Shown: one piece after another, positions 57,064-64,000 of the stretch
Numbering within the stretch: position 1 is the first letter of the stretch
How the letters are laid out: every line of letters starts with the position of its first letter
NCBI GenBank assembly: GCA_904420565.1
Contig: CAJFVV010000024.1
Span: forward strand, 27,111-91,110
Direction: 5' to 3'
DNA length: 64,000 bases
Origin: Candidatus Pseudoscillospira faecavium
Lineage (GTDB): Bacteria; Bacillota; Clostridia; Oscillospirales; Oscillospiraceae
Program-made: the position numbers and the translations under genes
The notes under the pieces: generated by a model
Database searches by the model: none
Seen by the model: the letters and a program-made list of their open reading frames with translations, nothing else
What the model was told of the DNA's origin: nothing

Positions 57064-58761
57064 TTAGCATTGTTTCGACAGAGATGCGCGGTATTGCTCT
57101 GCAGCATCCAGCATTTCCCCGGCGCTTTTCAACAGTGCATCGGTGATTTGCGCACCGCCGGTCAGCCGTGCAAGTTCTGCTTTTCTCTGCTCGTGGTCGA
57201 GACATGTAACCTTTGTATAGGTTCTTCCCTTTGACTCCCCTTTCTCCACAGAAAAATGTGCATCGGCCATCGCCGCAATCTGCGGCAAATGTGTGACACA
57301 CAACACTTGCTTGCGCCGTGAAACAGAAGCCATTTTTTCAGCAACCTTCTGCGCTGCACGCCCGGACACCCCAGTGTCCACTTCGTCAAATACCAATGTG
57401 CCCACACGATCATTTTCCGCCAACACATTTTTCAGTGCCAGCATAATGCGTGCCAGTTCGCCGCCGGATGCAATCTTTTGGATGGGACGCAACGCCTCCC
57501 CTGCATTAGCCGACATCAAAAATTGGACCTGATCCTGCCCATCACGCTCCAAGGATTTTTCCATAAACTGAATTTCAAACTGGACTTTTCCCATATTCAA
57601 ATCCCGCAGTTCCGAGAGAATTCTTGCTTGCAGCTGCTCCGCCGCGGCGTGACGCGCCTGCGAAAGTGCCTCAGCCGCAGCTCTGGCTGTTCGCTCTGCT
57701 GCACGGAATTCTTTCTCCAACCGTGCAAATGTATCGTCTGCGTACTGGATTTCATCCAGCTCTTTCTGAGCATGCGCCAAATATTGAATCATGTCTTCCA
57801 CCGTGGGACCGTATTTTTTCTTCAGACGATAAAGCTGATCAATACGACCTTCCACCTCATCCAATTCTTCCGGTGAAAATTCAAACTGTTCTTTTTGGTC
57901 CCGTACCGTTTCTGCAATATCATACAGCTCATGGCGCACATCCACAAGCCGGCCAAGCAGCTCAGAAAAAGTATCGCCAAATTGGCGCACACTGGAAAGG
58001 GCATTTTCTGCTTCCATCACCAAAGATACCGCACCATTGCTCTCTTCTCCGCCATTCAGGCAATAATCTGCTCCTTCAATGGCAGAAATATATTTCTCGC
58101 TGTTGCGCAGCAAATTGCGCCGCTCCAAAAGCCCTTCCTCTTCTCCTTCCTTTAGCTGCGCATGCTCTAATTCCTCAATTTCGTGCTGCAACACATCAAT
58201 TCTGCGTTCACGCTCAAGATCATCCATGCGGATGCTTTCCATTTTGCGCTGCAGCGTCCGCATGGCTTCATATGCCTGTGTATAATGTTCTTTTTTCTCA
58301 TCCGTCATCCCAAAGCTGTCTAAATAGCGAAGATGCTCCCGCTCATCCAGCAGTTGCTGACTATCATGCTGGCCATGAATATTCAAAAGGCCAGCACCGA
58401 GCTGCTTCAACTGTGAAACAGTGCATGGTCGTCCATTGATTCGGCAAACGGATTTTCCATCTGCCTGGATATCGCGCTGCAGCAATAAAGAGCCTTCCTC
58501 ATCCGGTTCGATTCCCTGCTCAGCAAAAACGGAAAGGCACGGATCCACATTGGAAAAAACTGCACTGACAACAGCATGCTCCGCACCGGTGCGCACCAAA
58601 TCCCGGGAAATGCGCTGTCCTAAAACAGCCCCCAGCGCATCGATCACAATGGATTTTCCGGCGCCAGTCTCACCCGTCAGTGCGTTGAAGCCGTTTTGGA
58701 AGGTAATGTCTGCTTTTTCAATGACCGCAATATTTTCAATATGCAAAAGCATCAGCATGGA
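57064..58761 (-). CDS. recN: DNA repair protein RecN
   Basis: 'IENIAVIEKADITFQNGFNALTGETGAGKSIVIDALG', 'LVFDEVDTGVSGRAAQKVAEK'. Exact start uncertain. Confidence 0.96.
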   Translation of the reverse strand, partial: SMLMLLHIENIAVIEKADITFQNGFNALTGETGAGKSIVIDALGAVLGQRISRDLVRTGAEHAVVSAVFSNVDPCLSVFAEQGIEPDEEGSLLLQRDIQADGKSVCRINGRPCTVSQLKQLGAGLLNIHGQHDSQQLLDEREHLRYLDSFGMTDEKKEHYTQAYEAMRTLQRKMESIRMDDLERERRIDVLQHEIEELEHAQLKEGEEEGLLERRNLLRNSEKYISAIEGADYCLNGGEESNGAVSLVMEAENALSSVRQFGDTFSELLGRLVDVRHELYDIAETVRDQKEQFEFSPEELDEVEGRIDQLYRLKKKYGPTVEDMIQYLAHAQKELDEIQYADDTFARLEKEFRAAERTARAAAEALSQARHAAAEQLQARILSELRDLNMGKVQFEIQFMEKSLERDGQDQVQFLMSANAGEALRPIQKIASGGELARIMLALKNVLAENDRVGTLVFDEVDTGVSGRAAQKVAEKMASVSRRKQVLCVTHLPQIAAMADAHFSVEKGESKGRTYTKVTCLDHEQRKAELARLTGGAQITDALLKSAGEMLDAAEQYRASLSKQC

Positions 58762-58777
58762 GCAGCACTCCTTTCCA

Positions 58778-59230
58778 TCATTCAATCATTTTTCGGATAT
58801 CCTCACAAAAATGAAGAGCGCTTTCATTGTCACGCATAATGAGCAGCACCGTATCATCGCCCGCCAGCGATCCTACCAAAACACTGATATTCATATGATC
58901 CAGCGCCGCGCATGCCGCAGATGCCAAACCGGGCATTGTTTTCAGCACAACGATATTCTGTGCGCAATCAAAACTGCTCACACTCTCCCGGAAAATAGTA
59001 CGGAGCTTTCCAGCGTTATGAAAAGTCGCTTTATGCACGGACGCAACATAATGATAGCTTCCACGGCCGGTTTGCTCTTTGATCAAATGCAGCTCCTTCA
59101 TATCTCTGGAGATGGTTGCCTGTGTTACATGCATACCGGCCTCTTTCAATGCCTCCAATAACTGCTCCTGCGTTTCAATCGGCTTTTCCGCAATAATTTC
59201 CAAGATTTTTTCCTGGCGTTTCGTTTTCAT
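58778..59230 (-). CDS. argR: Arginine repressor ArgR/AhrC
   Basis: 'VTQATISRDMKELHLIK', C-terminal oligomerisation domain; between recN and nadK. Confidence 0.95.
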   Translation of the reverse strand: MKTKRQEKILEIIAEKPIETQEQLLEALKEAGMHVTQATISRDMKELHLIKEQTGRGSYHYVASVHKATFHNAGKLRTIFRESVSSFDCAQNIVVLKTMPGLASAACAALDHMNISVLVGSLAGDDTVLLIMRDNESALHFCEDIRKMIE

Positions 59231-60099
59231 GTTCTCATCTCCCGATTTGCCATTTTGCTGCGTAAAATTTCATAAAAACTTCGATTTTTCAATTTCACCA
59301 GCTTCGTCACATATTTCGATTTTCCAATGACCACACGGTCACTCTCTTTGAGCAAAAATGCCTTCCCGCCATCAGCAGATAAATAAACCGTTTTATTTCC
59401 ATTGCGCACAGAGCGAATTTCTACCGTCTGCTCCGGTCCCAGTACATAAGAGGATGCCATCAATGAATGGGCACATATAGGGGTAATCAAAATATTCTGG
59501 GCAACAGGATCCACGATGGGGCCGCCTGCAGATAAAGAATAGGCCGTAGACCCTGTGGGAGTGGCAAAGATCATGCCGTCACCTCCCTGGCAAATAAATT
59601 CTTTTTGATTCAGATACAGCTGCAGTTTGATCACACGTGCTACTGCACCTTTGGTAATAACCGCATCATTCAGCACAGTAGTCGAATAAACCTGCTTTTC
59701 TTCCCGAAAGACACGCACATTCAGCATCATGCGCTCTTCATACTGCAAATCAGCATCATTCAGCCGCCGAAGCAACGGGAGATCCGTACTTTCCAGTTCT
59801 GCAATATATCCGAGATTGCCAAGATTGATGCCAAGAATCGGCAGCCGATGCATGGCAGCTGTCTTTGCCAAATGTAAAATGCTCCCGTCTCCGCCAAAAG
59901 CAATCATAATATCCGCACGTTTCATAGCCGTTTTCAGCGGTTGGTAGACAAGATCTTTCGGCACTTCTGCTGTCTCTTGCGCAAACGGCAGACTAATGGC
60001 GCTTTCAATCCCCATTTCCCGCAAAATTTGAATCACTTCTCTTGTCATATGCAGTTGGCGATCGCGGTAAGGATTCGGACATAAAACGACTTTTTTCAT
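59227..60099 (-). CDS. nadK: NAD kinase
   Basis: 'AFGGDGSILHLAKTA', 'GINLGNLGYIAEL', 'TPTGSTAYSLSAGGPIV'. Confidence 0.96.
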   Translation of the reverse strand: MKKVVLCPNPYRDRQLHMTREVIQILREMGIESAISLPFAQETAEVPKDLVYQPLKTAMKRADIMIAFGGDGSILHLAKTAAMHRLPILGINLGNLGYIAELESTDLPLLRRLNDADLQYEERMMLNVRVFREEKQVYSTTVLNDAVITKGAVARVIKLQLYLNQKEFICQGGDGMIFATPTGSTAYSLSAGGPIVDPVAQNILITPICAHSLMASSYVLGPEQTVEIRSVRNGNKTVYLSADGGKAFLLKESDRVVIGKSKYVTKLVKLKNRSFYEILRSKMANREMRT

Positions 60100-60106
60100 A
60101 TGGAAT

Positions 60107-60910
60107 TCAACCTTTCAGCGCAGTATGCGCTGCATCAATGATTTTTGTCAGATCCAGAGATACGGCATCACTGCCAGGTCCCTTTTGCAGAAAACCAAGA
60201 TATTCAATATTTCCTTCCTGCCCGGTGATAGGTGAATAAGTGATATCCAGCACTGAGAATCCTGCATCCGCTGCATTTTTCAGATATTGTTCCAGCACCA
60301 TCAAATGGACTTTGGGATCCCTGACAATTCCTTTTTTCCCCACCAATTCACGTCCTGCTTCAAACTGCGGCTTGACCAGTGTTACCATATGAGCGCCTTC
60401 TTTCATCAGTGCACATACCGCCGGTAAAATCAGTTTCAAAGAGATAAAGGACACGTCAATTGACGCAAAATCCAGCGCATCCGGAATCTGCTCACGATCG
60501 AGATAGCGTGCATTCGTCCGCTCCAAAACGACCACGCGTTCATCGCTGCGCAGTTTCCAGGCAAGCTCTCCATATCCTACATCCACAGAATAGACTTTAG
60601 CCGCACCGTTTTGCAGCATGCAATCCGTAAAGCCTCCAGTGGAAGCGCCAATATCTGCTGTAATTTTTCCATGTAAATCGATGGGAAAAACTTCCATAGC
60701 CTTTTCCAGTTTCAATCCGCCGCGGCCCACATAGCGCAGTGCCTGACCGCGAACCTCCAGCGCAATTGCTTCATCCACAGGCATACCGGCTTTCTCCAGG
60801 CGGCGGTCTCCCGAAAAAATCTGTCCTGCCATAATCATCGCCTGGGCTTTTTGCCTGCTTTCGGCCAATCCACGTTCCGTTACTAATACATCAAGACGTT
60901 TCTTTGCCAC
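60107..60910 (-). CDS. tlyA: TlyA-family rRNA methyltransferase
   Basis: S4 domain N-terminus 'KKRLDVLVTERGLAESRQKAQAMIMAG', 'DIGASTGGFTDCMLQNGA'. Confidence 0.93.
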   Translation of the reverse strand: MAKKRLDVLVTERGLAESRQKAQAMIMAGQIFSGDRRLEKAGMPVDEAIALEVRGQALRYVGRGGLKLEKAMEVFPIDLHGKITADIGASTGGFTDCMLQNGAAKVYSVDVGYGELAWKLRSDERVVVLERTNARYLDREQIPDALDFASIDVSFISLKLILPAVCALMKEGAHMVTLVKPQFEAGRELVGKKGIVRDPKVHLMVLEQYLKNAADAGFSVLDITYSPITGQEGNIEYLGFLQKGPGSDAVSLDLTKIIDAAHTALKG

Positions 60911-62771
60911 GATGCAATGCCTCCTTCACCGCTGCAGCAATACCCGCTCCATTCAATCCCATACTCTGACGCAACAGCGCAACGCTCCCCTGTGCTGTAA
61001 ATGCAGCACCAAGATTTTTTAAAATCAAATGCTCCGGAATACACCCGCGCTGAGAAAGCATCGATGCAATCCGCTGTCCGACACAGCCGCCTTCTACACA
61101 TTCTTCCAGCACCAGCAGTGCATTCGTTTTGCGAACAGAAGCCTCAATCGCGTCTATATCCAAAGGCTGAATAGTATTCAATTTCAGAATTTCTGCAGCA
61201 ATTCCTTCTATCTCCAGAAGGCCGGCTGCTTCCAGAACTTCATTGATCATCGTTCCATAAGTGAGCAAAGTGAAATCTGTTCCCTGCCGGCAGCACTCTG
61301 ACGCACCACGAGACAACCCATGATAAACGCCTTCCCCTCCGCGGGCATAGCGCACAGCCACAGGGCCTCGCTCCTCCAGGACAGCGCGCTCAATCATGTC
61401 GCGCATCTCCGCAAAACTGGATGGGCAATAGATCGTCATACCCGGTACCTGGCTGAGATACCCGACATCAAAGACGCCATGGTGGGTTTCGCCATCCTCT
61501 CCCACCAATCCGGCGCGATCCACTGCGAAAACAACATGCAGCTGCATCAATGCCACATCATGCAGCAGCATATCATAACCACGCTGCAAAAAGCTGGAAT
61601 ACACCGCAAAAACAGGGATCATTCCCTGGGAAGCCATGCCTGCAGCCATGGCAACAGCGTGCCCCTCTGCAATGCCAACATCGAAAAAACGCTCCGGATA
61701 GTGCTGGGCAAAACGATCAAGCCCGGTTCCGGATTCCATAGCAGCTGTAATCGTGCATACCCGCGCATCTCTCTGCGCAAGATCGCAGAGTGTTTTTCCG
61801 CAGATTTTGCTGAAATTTTCACCTGATGGTTTCAGTGTCAAGCCGGTTTGCGGATCAAATGCAGAAATTCCATGAAATTTATCCGGGTTTTCCTCTGCAA
61901 AAGAATAGCCTTTACCCTTAACAGTATTGACATGAACCACAACCGGTGCGTGCAGCTCTTTTGCCCAGCTCAGCACATGAAAAAGCTGGTCCAGGTTGTG
62001 CCCATCCACCGGACCGAGATACTGAAATCCCATATCCTCAAAAAAGCTGCAGGGCCACAGTGCTTTCTTCAGACTCGTTTTACAGCGATGTACAATCCGG
62101 TAAATGGTTTTTCCGCCCGGCAAATGATGCACTGTATTATGATAAATCTTTTTAAACCGATAGTAGCCGGAACGGGTGCGGATCCTTGCAAGATGACTGG
62201 CCACACCGCCCACATTCCGGCTGATGGACATGCCATTGTCATTTAATATGAGAATGAGCGGTTCCCCGGAAGCCCCTGCATTATTCAGTCCTTCATAAGC
62301 CAAGCCGCCGGTTAAGGCACCATCGCCAATCACAGCAAGAACACAATAATCTGCTCCGCGCAGTGTTCTCGCTCTTGCCATTCCCAAAGCTACAGAAACG
62401 GAGTTGGATGCATGCCCGGCAATAAATGCATCATGTATACTCTCATATGGTTTAGGAAATCCAGATAAACCCTCAAATTTCCGAAGCGTTGAAAACAGCT
62501 CGCGCCGCCCCGTTAAAGCTTTATGCACATAACACTGATGCCCAACGTCAAACACCAGGCGATCCCGCGCCGTATCAAAGACACGATGAATTGCAACTGT
62601 CAACTCCACCGCACCTAAATTGGAGGCAAGATGGCCGCCCGTCTTTGAAACGGATGCCAATAAAAAAGCACGCAGCTCTTCACATAGGTGCTGACATTCT
62701 TCCTGTGATAATTTTTTCACATCTTCAGGACCGGAGATGTGTTCCAAAATTTCAGATTTCATTGCGCTCAC
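60891..62771 (-). CDS. dxs: 1-deoxy-D-xylulose-5-phosphate synthase
   Basis: 'DVGHQCYVHKALTGRR', 'VIGDGALTGGLAYEGLNNAG', 'FDVGIAEGHAVAMAAGMA'. Confidence 0.97.
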   Translation of the reverse strand: MSAMKSEILEHISGPEDVKKLSQEECQHLCEELRAFLLASVSKTGGHLASNLGAVELTVAIHRVFDTARDRLVFDVGHQCYVHKALTGRRELFSTLRKFEGLSGFPKPYESIHDAFIAGHASNSVSVALGMARARTLRGADYCVLAVIGDGALTGGLAYEGLNNAGASGEPLILILNDNGMSISRNVGGVASHLARIRTRSGYYRFKKIYHNTVHHLPGGKTIYRIVHRCKTSLKKALWPCSFFEDMGFQYLGPVDGHNLDQLFHVLSWAKELHAPVVVHVNTVKGKGYSFAEENPDKFHGISAFDPQTGLTLKPSGENFSKICGKTLCDLAQRDARVCTITAAMESGTGLDRFAQHYPERFFDVGIAEGHAVAMAAGMASQGMIPVFAVYSSFLQRGYDMLLHDVALMQLHVVFAVDRAGLVGEDGETHHGVFDVGYLSQVPGMTIYCPSSFAEMRDMIERAVLEERGPVAVRYARGGEGVYHGLSRGASECCRQGTDFTLLTYGTMINEVLEAAGLLEIEGIAAEILKLNTIQPLDIDAIEASVRKTNALLVLEECVEGGCVGQRIASMLSQRGCIPEHLILKNLGAAFTAQGSVALLRQSMGLNGAGIAAAVKEALHRGKETS

Positions 62772-62805
62772 CTTTACTGCTTTCCAAAAACATCACTGCA
62801 GTATA

Positions 62806-63381
62806 TCATTTCCGCCGAATTACATGGAGCACGCGTGCAGCTGTATGCACAACCTGTGTACTGTTGTTAATGGCAATCTTCTTGCCAATGGCTTTTCCTC
62901 CGATGGTAAGACCGGATACCAGCGCAGAAATAAACAGAGAAAGCATCACTGAATCCAAACGAAATGCGCTGCACAGTTTGGATACGATGACCGCAGCCGT
63001 GGAACCGCTGACAATACCGGCGATATCGCCCACCACATCGTTGCATACATTGCTGACCTTCTCTGCATTTCGGATCAGCCGCAGCGCACAAGCAGCGCTT
63101 TTTTCTCCGTGTGCCGCCATGGAATGAAAGGGACGTTCATCGGCCACAGTAACCGAAACACCGACAATATCAAATAAAATACCAATCAAAATAAAAGCCG
63201 CCAGCAGCGAAAAAGCAATAAAATAGCCGGCGCCTTCGAGCACATTGGAAGAAACCAGACTGAACATTGCTGAAATAATAATCGACATCAAAAAAATTTT
63301 GGGAACCCAATAGTCCCGTTTTTGCTTTCCCTTTTCTGCCGGTGTCTGCTTTTTCACCTTGCCCGTTTTAGGGTTATCCAC
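62806..63381 (-). CDS. oapA: OLE-associated membrane protein OapA (CNNM/CorB-like membrane protein)
   Basis: About 191-aa multi-TM protein upstream of dxs and immediately downstream of the OLE-like RNA. GTG start at 63381 after AGGAGG. Confidence 0.75.
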   Translation of the reverse strand: MDNPKTGKVKKQTPAEKGKQKRDYWVPKIFLMSIIISAMFSLVSSNVLEGAGYFIAFSLLAAFILIGILFDIVGVSVTVADERPFHSMAAHGEKSAACALRLIRNAEKVSNVCNDVVGDIAGIVSGSTAAVIVSKLCSAFRLDSVMLSLFISALVSGLTIGGKAIGKKIAINNSTQVVHTAARVLHVIRRK

Positions 63382-63420
63382 TTGAAGTCCTCCTAAATCA
63401 TAAAACACATGAGAAAACTA

Positions 63421-64000
63421 AACAGACGGCAACATCAGAAGTAAATCTTACGGCTTAGGTACGGGTAGGATTTCCCCGTGGAGCACCTCGCGTTTCCACT
63501 CGGCGGTTTCCCTTTAAGCCCCGCGTCAATGCGTCACCGACATTGCGACCCGATTGCCACTTAGTCCGCACTGCAATCCTTCTGATGCCCACGAATCGAC
63601 AGCCTAGGTGTTTTCCACGGCAGCCAGCTCATTTCTTAGCCTCTTTTGCAACTGTGGTTTCAGCAAGCAATCGCACGGCCTCCCTGGCCGGGGATTCCAT
63701 GCGTAGATCTCGCATCCACCACACCCACTCAAGGCAGGCTACTCTGCACATAGCGATAGGGGACGGAGTCGTCCCTTCCGCACCACATTGCAGGTTTCAC
63801 CCTGCTTCGTAATGAGTCACAAGCCCATTCCGGGTTTCCCTTGGCTCATCACAAGAGCAGGTCTCCACGGAAAGCGGGTCGAATTTGCATGCCATTGCAA
63901 GTCGCCCGCAAACCTTAACCCCCAGCATCCACCCCAAACTGGGCGTAAGAAGCAAACACCAGGGACTTCATCGATATGCCCTTCAAAGGATTTTTAGGCC
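63421..64000 (-). ncRNA. ole: OLE RNA (ornate, large, extremophilic), possibly truncated at the window edge
   Basis: ~580 nt without credible coding. Many compact hairpins on the minus strand (e.g. GCAGGgtgaaaCCTGC at 63790-63805, GGGACgactcCGTCCC at 63760-63775). Order ole-oapA-dxs-tlyA-argR-recN matches the known OLE locus. Confidence 0.85.

Follow-up and report, generated by a model that had tools for sequence, protein, structure and literature searches.

A full-type OLE RNA gene between ispA and oapA in a gut member of the Oscillospiraceae

OLE is a large, well-known bacterial noncoding RNA. Of the conserved bacterial RNAs that still lack a known biochemical function, it is one of the largest. 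Its usual membrane-protein partner is OapA, and OapB is essential in Halalkalibacterium halodurans. In published work, from which we take the biology of OLE (PMC9723947, PMC11332333, PMC12286853, PMC12265935), disruption of OLE renders H. halodurans sensitive to cold, alcohol and Mg2+. The RNA dimerizes (PMC12286853). It is bound to the membrane along with OapA, and OapC attaches to it at a kink-turn (k-turn) that J4a/5 and J5/6 build (PMC9723947). OapA is weakly similar to the CNNM domain, and of the species with OLE, only about 60% have OapB, which is hence not strictly defining (PMC11332333). Here we analyze the window, the whole stretch of 64,000 nucleotides of DNA under study, for which a preliminary description had proposed an OLE RNA at the right edge on the grounds of synteny, length and structure, with Infernal and the Rfam OLE model as the check and ispA/xseB expected upstream.

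The OLE RNA and its gene neighborhood

When positions 60000-64000 were scanned against all Rfam families with Infernal cmscan, OLE (RF01071) was the sole match, at 63410-64000 on the minus strand (420.8 bits against a gathering cut-off of 50 bits, E 2.1e-121, model positions 58-616), and a whole-genome search placed the ole gene there as well. The proposed identity was thus borne out. The window ends where contig C24 ends (G000:C24:91110), which cuts the RNA at its 5′ side, about 57 nt being absent. A search of the same assembly with the ispA-ole DNA of a congener led to another contig, C26. Its end carries ispA together with the beginning of OLE, and C26 by itself matches OLE positions 1-130 (103.9 bits). 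The end of C26 and that of C24 overlap exactly over 73 bases, a stretch seen at these two contig ends only. With 591 nt in the window and 57 nt on C26, the RNA reaches about 648 nt, consistent with the length of about 600 nt expected of OLE, and the two matches, at 58-616 and 1-130, cover most of the model at scores above the gathering cut-off.

Upstream of ole, C26 carries xseA, xseB and ispA, as had been predicted for the last two, and congeners give Pfam matches for the same genes. Directly 3′ of ole lies oapA (62806-63381, minus strand), with a GTG start after AGGAGG; its product matches CNNM below the cut-off (E 4.5e-4), which agrees with the weak similarity noted above, and among the related genomes it has homologues in precisely those that carry OLE. 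The following genes, all on the minus strand, are dxs (60891-62771; PF13292, E 1.6e-112), a tlyA-type S4/FtsJ rRNA methyltransferase gene (60107-60910; PF01728, PF01479), nadK (59227-60099; PF20143, PF01513), argR (58778-59230; PF02863, PF01316) and a 573-aa ORF (57064-58785), which we take to be recN from its sequence and position. Joined at the overlap, the two contigs read xseA-xseB-ispA-ole-oapA-dxs-tlyA-nadK-argR-recN, which sets ole in an isoprenoid neighborhood, with ispA upstream on C26 and dxs, recognized by Pfam, downstream. The downstream order is the one first described. The place of nadK in it stands, but not its reading as an odd insertion, as the ORFs of the congener are arranged identically. 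The host had been taken for a gut-type Clostridium. The gut origin holds, but judged by OapA, the nearest relative with a name is ‘Candidatus Pseudoscilispira falkowii’ (80% identity), which comes from chicken. This makes the host a gut member of the Oscillospiraceae instead, in the genus of ‘Candidatus Pseudoscilispira’.

Truncation at the contig end in the assembly could suggest a decayed copy or a pseudogene. This is refuted by the missing part on C26, which through the exact overlap restores a continuous sequence of about 648 nt. In addition, the OLE DNA and its counterpart in congener G001 are about 90% identical, compared with 77% for oapA and 70% for dxs, which shows strong selection on the RNA, and oapA is intact; we regard decay as very improbable. 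It is still less credible that the region is coding, or a long untranslated leader of oapA and not a separate RNA: a scan of a congener found no strong terminator between ole and oapA, so that co-transcription is likely, but there is no sense ORF (the 60-89-aa ORFs of 63421-64000, rightly dismissed as implausible genes, are all plus-strand ORFs, antisense to ole), the covariance match runs over the whole length, and co-transcription with oapA would leave the OLE identity unchanged. We are therefore nearly certain that the locus holds a true OLE RNA gene of the full type, between ispA and oapA. It is a further genuine, ordinary representative of an already known RNA family.

The proof of this identity lies in the covariance match and not in a general richness in stems, as the folding of the segment was only modestly better than that of dinucleotide shuffles (z = -2.7; 1 of 100 shuffles equally good). 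Three stems singled out in the preliminary description each occur once (63790-63805, 63760-63775 and 63676-63693), but not all of them agree with the Rfam structure. GGGACGACTCCGTCCC is indeed a hairpin (GGGACGACUCCGUCCC, 63760-63775, minus strand). It sits in a lineage-specific 22-nt extension that enlarges one of the OLE hairpin loops, where the sequence of congener G001 differs and still pairs. In the consensus, the pairing within CCCCGGCCAGGGAGGCCG is of CCC with GGG, enclosing a GGCCA loop, as opposed to GGCC with GGCC. The arms of GCAGGGTGAAACCTGC (GCAGGG...CCTGC) belong to two different consensus helices, and it is hence no OLE hairpin.

Just upstream of ole, the block CTTGCATATTTTCAAAAATCTGATAAAATATGA hardly varies among three congeners, and the DNA farther upstream diverges. 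As a sigma-70 consensus scan of the congener found no promoter, it is this conservation that leads us to propose the block as a putative ole promoter (TTGCAT, 16 nt, extended -10 TGnTAAAAT). The RNA would then be transcribed from its own promoter (TTGCAT-N16-TAAAAT), and transcription would probably continue into oapA, with no terminator in between.

Other OLE loci differ in size and arrangement. An unusually long OLE in G010 (L028:1-841) has several expanded hairpins and one 119-nt loop insertion. In the fragmentary genome G050, OLE extends over two contigs (L026:1806-2381 and L025:2496-2889), and one part has an insertion of about 230 nt that replaces part of P6. A minimal OLE of 314 nt in G002 was rejected as a contig-end artefact. 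In three genomes, ole and oapA are apparently on separate contigs, though enough DNA follows ole (G061, L092 and L098; G085, L097 and L101; G088, L095 and L100), and the two genes may be unlinked there. In G065, oapA occurs a second time, on a different contig (L099).

Protein partners and a proposed particle

OLE and OapA were found in identical sets of genomes, 36 of 99 related genomes without exception (the sets behind this count, and behind those for MpfA and OapC below, were compiled by hand from search results). OapC is encoded in the genome of the window as a 94-aa L7Ae-family protein, its gene lying directly downstream of rpoC; in other OLE-bearing genomes, it likewise follows rpoC and precedes rpsL. 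By comparison with the published k-turn, the OapC site has a left strand AUC-GAU-GAAG in J4a/5 (63966-63975, minus strand) and a right strand UUAAGGU in J5/6 and the start of P6 (63912-63918, minus strand; placement from PMC9723947), and the GGU of the right strand could pair with the AUC of the left. At the level of sequence, the canonical letters of the OapC k-turn are thus kept in an organism that also encodes OapC.

Because these letters are kept, the same OapA/OapC particle is to be expected. By analogy with other OLE RNAs, the RNA would fold, dimerize and bind OapA, a membrane protein, as well as OapC, a small protein resembling L7Ae, the latter via the kink-turn near P5. RNA and proteins together would form a membrane ribonucleoprotein that aids adaptation to stress, such as excess Mg2+. 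We consider that this model probably applies to the organism studied here. Within the assembly, which is 80% complete, a KOW-family search for OapB gave only L24 (rplX) above the cut-off, and no KOW ORF was found between map and infA, the usual place of OapB. As OapB was not found, the particle probably works without it here.

An Mg2+ exporter of the MpfA type (CorC_HlyC) was found in 6 of 36 OLE-bearing genomes and in 56 of 63 others (Fisher 5e-13; 99 relatives, kinship ignored). This anticorrelation has been published (PMC11332333), and our result repeats it at the family and order scale. The genome of the window nevertheless belongs to the minority that combines OLE/OapA with an MpfA-type protein, as it encodes a full one with the architecture CNNM-CBS-CorC_HlyC (G000:C14; L124:1003-2331, minus strand). 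Given this protein, the role in Mg2+ may be shared between the OLE particle and the exporter.

A J5/6 hairpin in relatives

In many Oscillospiraceae, but not in the window, J5/6 contains an extra covarying hairpin of 5-8 bp opposite the k-turn bulge. Among its bearers are Oscillibacter valericigenes and O. ruminantium; in alignment A1, they comprise L037, L051, L044, L048, L055, L020, L028, L086, L087, L090, L088, L089, L091 and others. The hairpin replaces the UUAA of J5/6, for instance by GGAAGCGTGATTTCACGCTTGC in O. valericigenes (L037). Across 21 aligned examples, pairing was seen in 143 of 144 cells at seven positions, in an alignment anchored by eye and biased towards the helix, and compensatory changes were present at six of the seven pairs. 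On this covariation, the helix looks real.

A k-turn with an added helix on its non-bulged strand is by definition a k-junction, and L7Ae did not bring about folding in two k-junctions that were tested (PMC10573300). It is quite possible, and we suggest it tentatively, that with the J5/6 hairpin the k-turn becomes a three-way junction resembling a k-junction, or is replaced by the hairpin, and that this alters how or whether OapC binds. A link between the hairpin and the loss of OapC was considered and rejected: in a first set of 36 relatives, OapC was absent from 7 of 12 hairpin-bearing genomes and from 2 of 24 others (Fisher 0.0025, kinship ignored), but a second set, with the hairpin classed by eye, did not support this (3 of 18 with the hairpin, 4 of 16 without). 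Published variation of OLE is described for J6/7-P8 (PMC12265935). No mention of the J5/6 hairpin was found in the text of the OLE papers searched, and the hairpin may have been described before. The literature searched gave no mention of OLE RNA and Oscillospiraceae together.

Comparison with known OLE systems

One more OLE in a gut bacterium contributes little on its own. Two aspects are mildly useful: OLE/OapA and an MpfA-type exporter, usually mutually exclusive, occur together in one genome, and relatives vary naturally in structure exactly at the OapC binding site.

The locus resembles the OLE RNAs (RF01071) of H. halodurans and Clostridium acetobutylicum in its full-length match of sequence and structure, in having ispA upstream and oapA and dxs downstream, in its canonical k-turn site, and in the presence of OapA and OapC in the genome. 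It differs from them in its gut Oscillospiraceae host and in the 22-nt GC-rich extension of a hairpin loop; in its genome, the usual site between map and infA yielded no OapB, and an MpfA-type exporter is also encoded. With OLE variants 1 (TANB77) and 2 (RF39) (PMC11332333), it shares an origin in uncultured gut bacteria and a lack of OapB, as far as OapB was not found here. However, P7-P9 are short or missing in these variants, whereas the RNA of the window is unshortened, with P7-P9 present and extended, and its genome encodes OapC.
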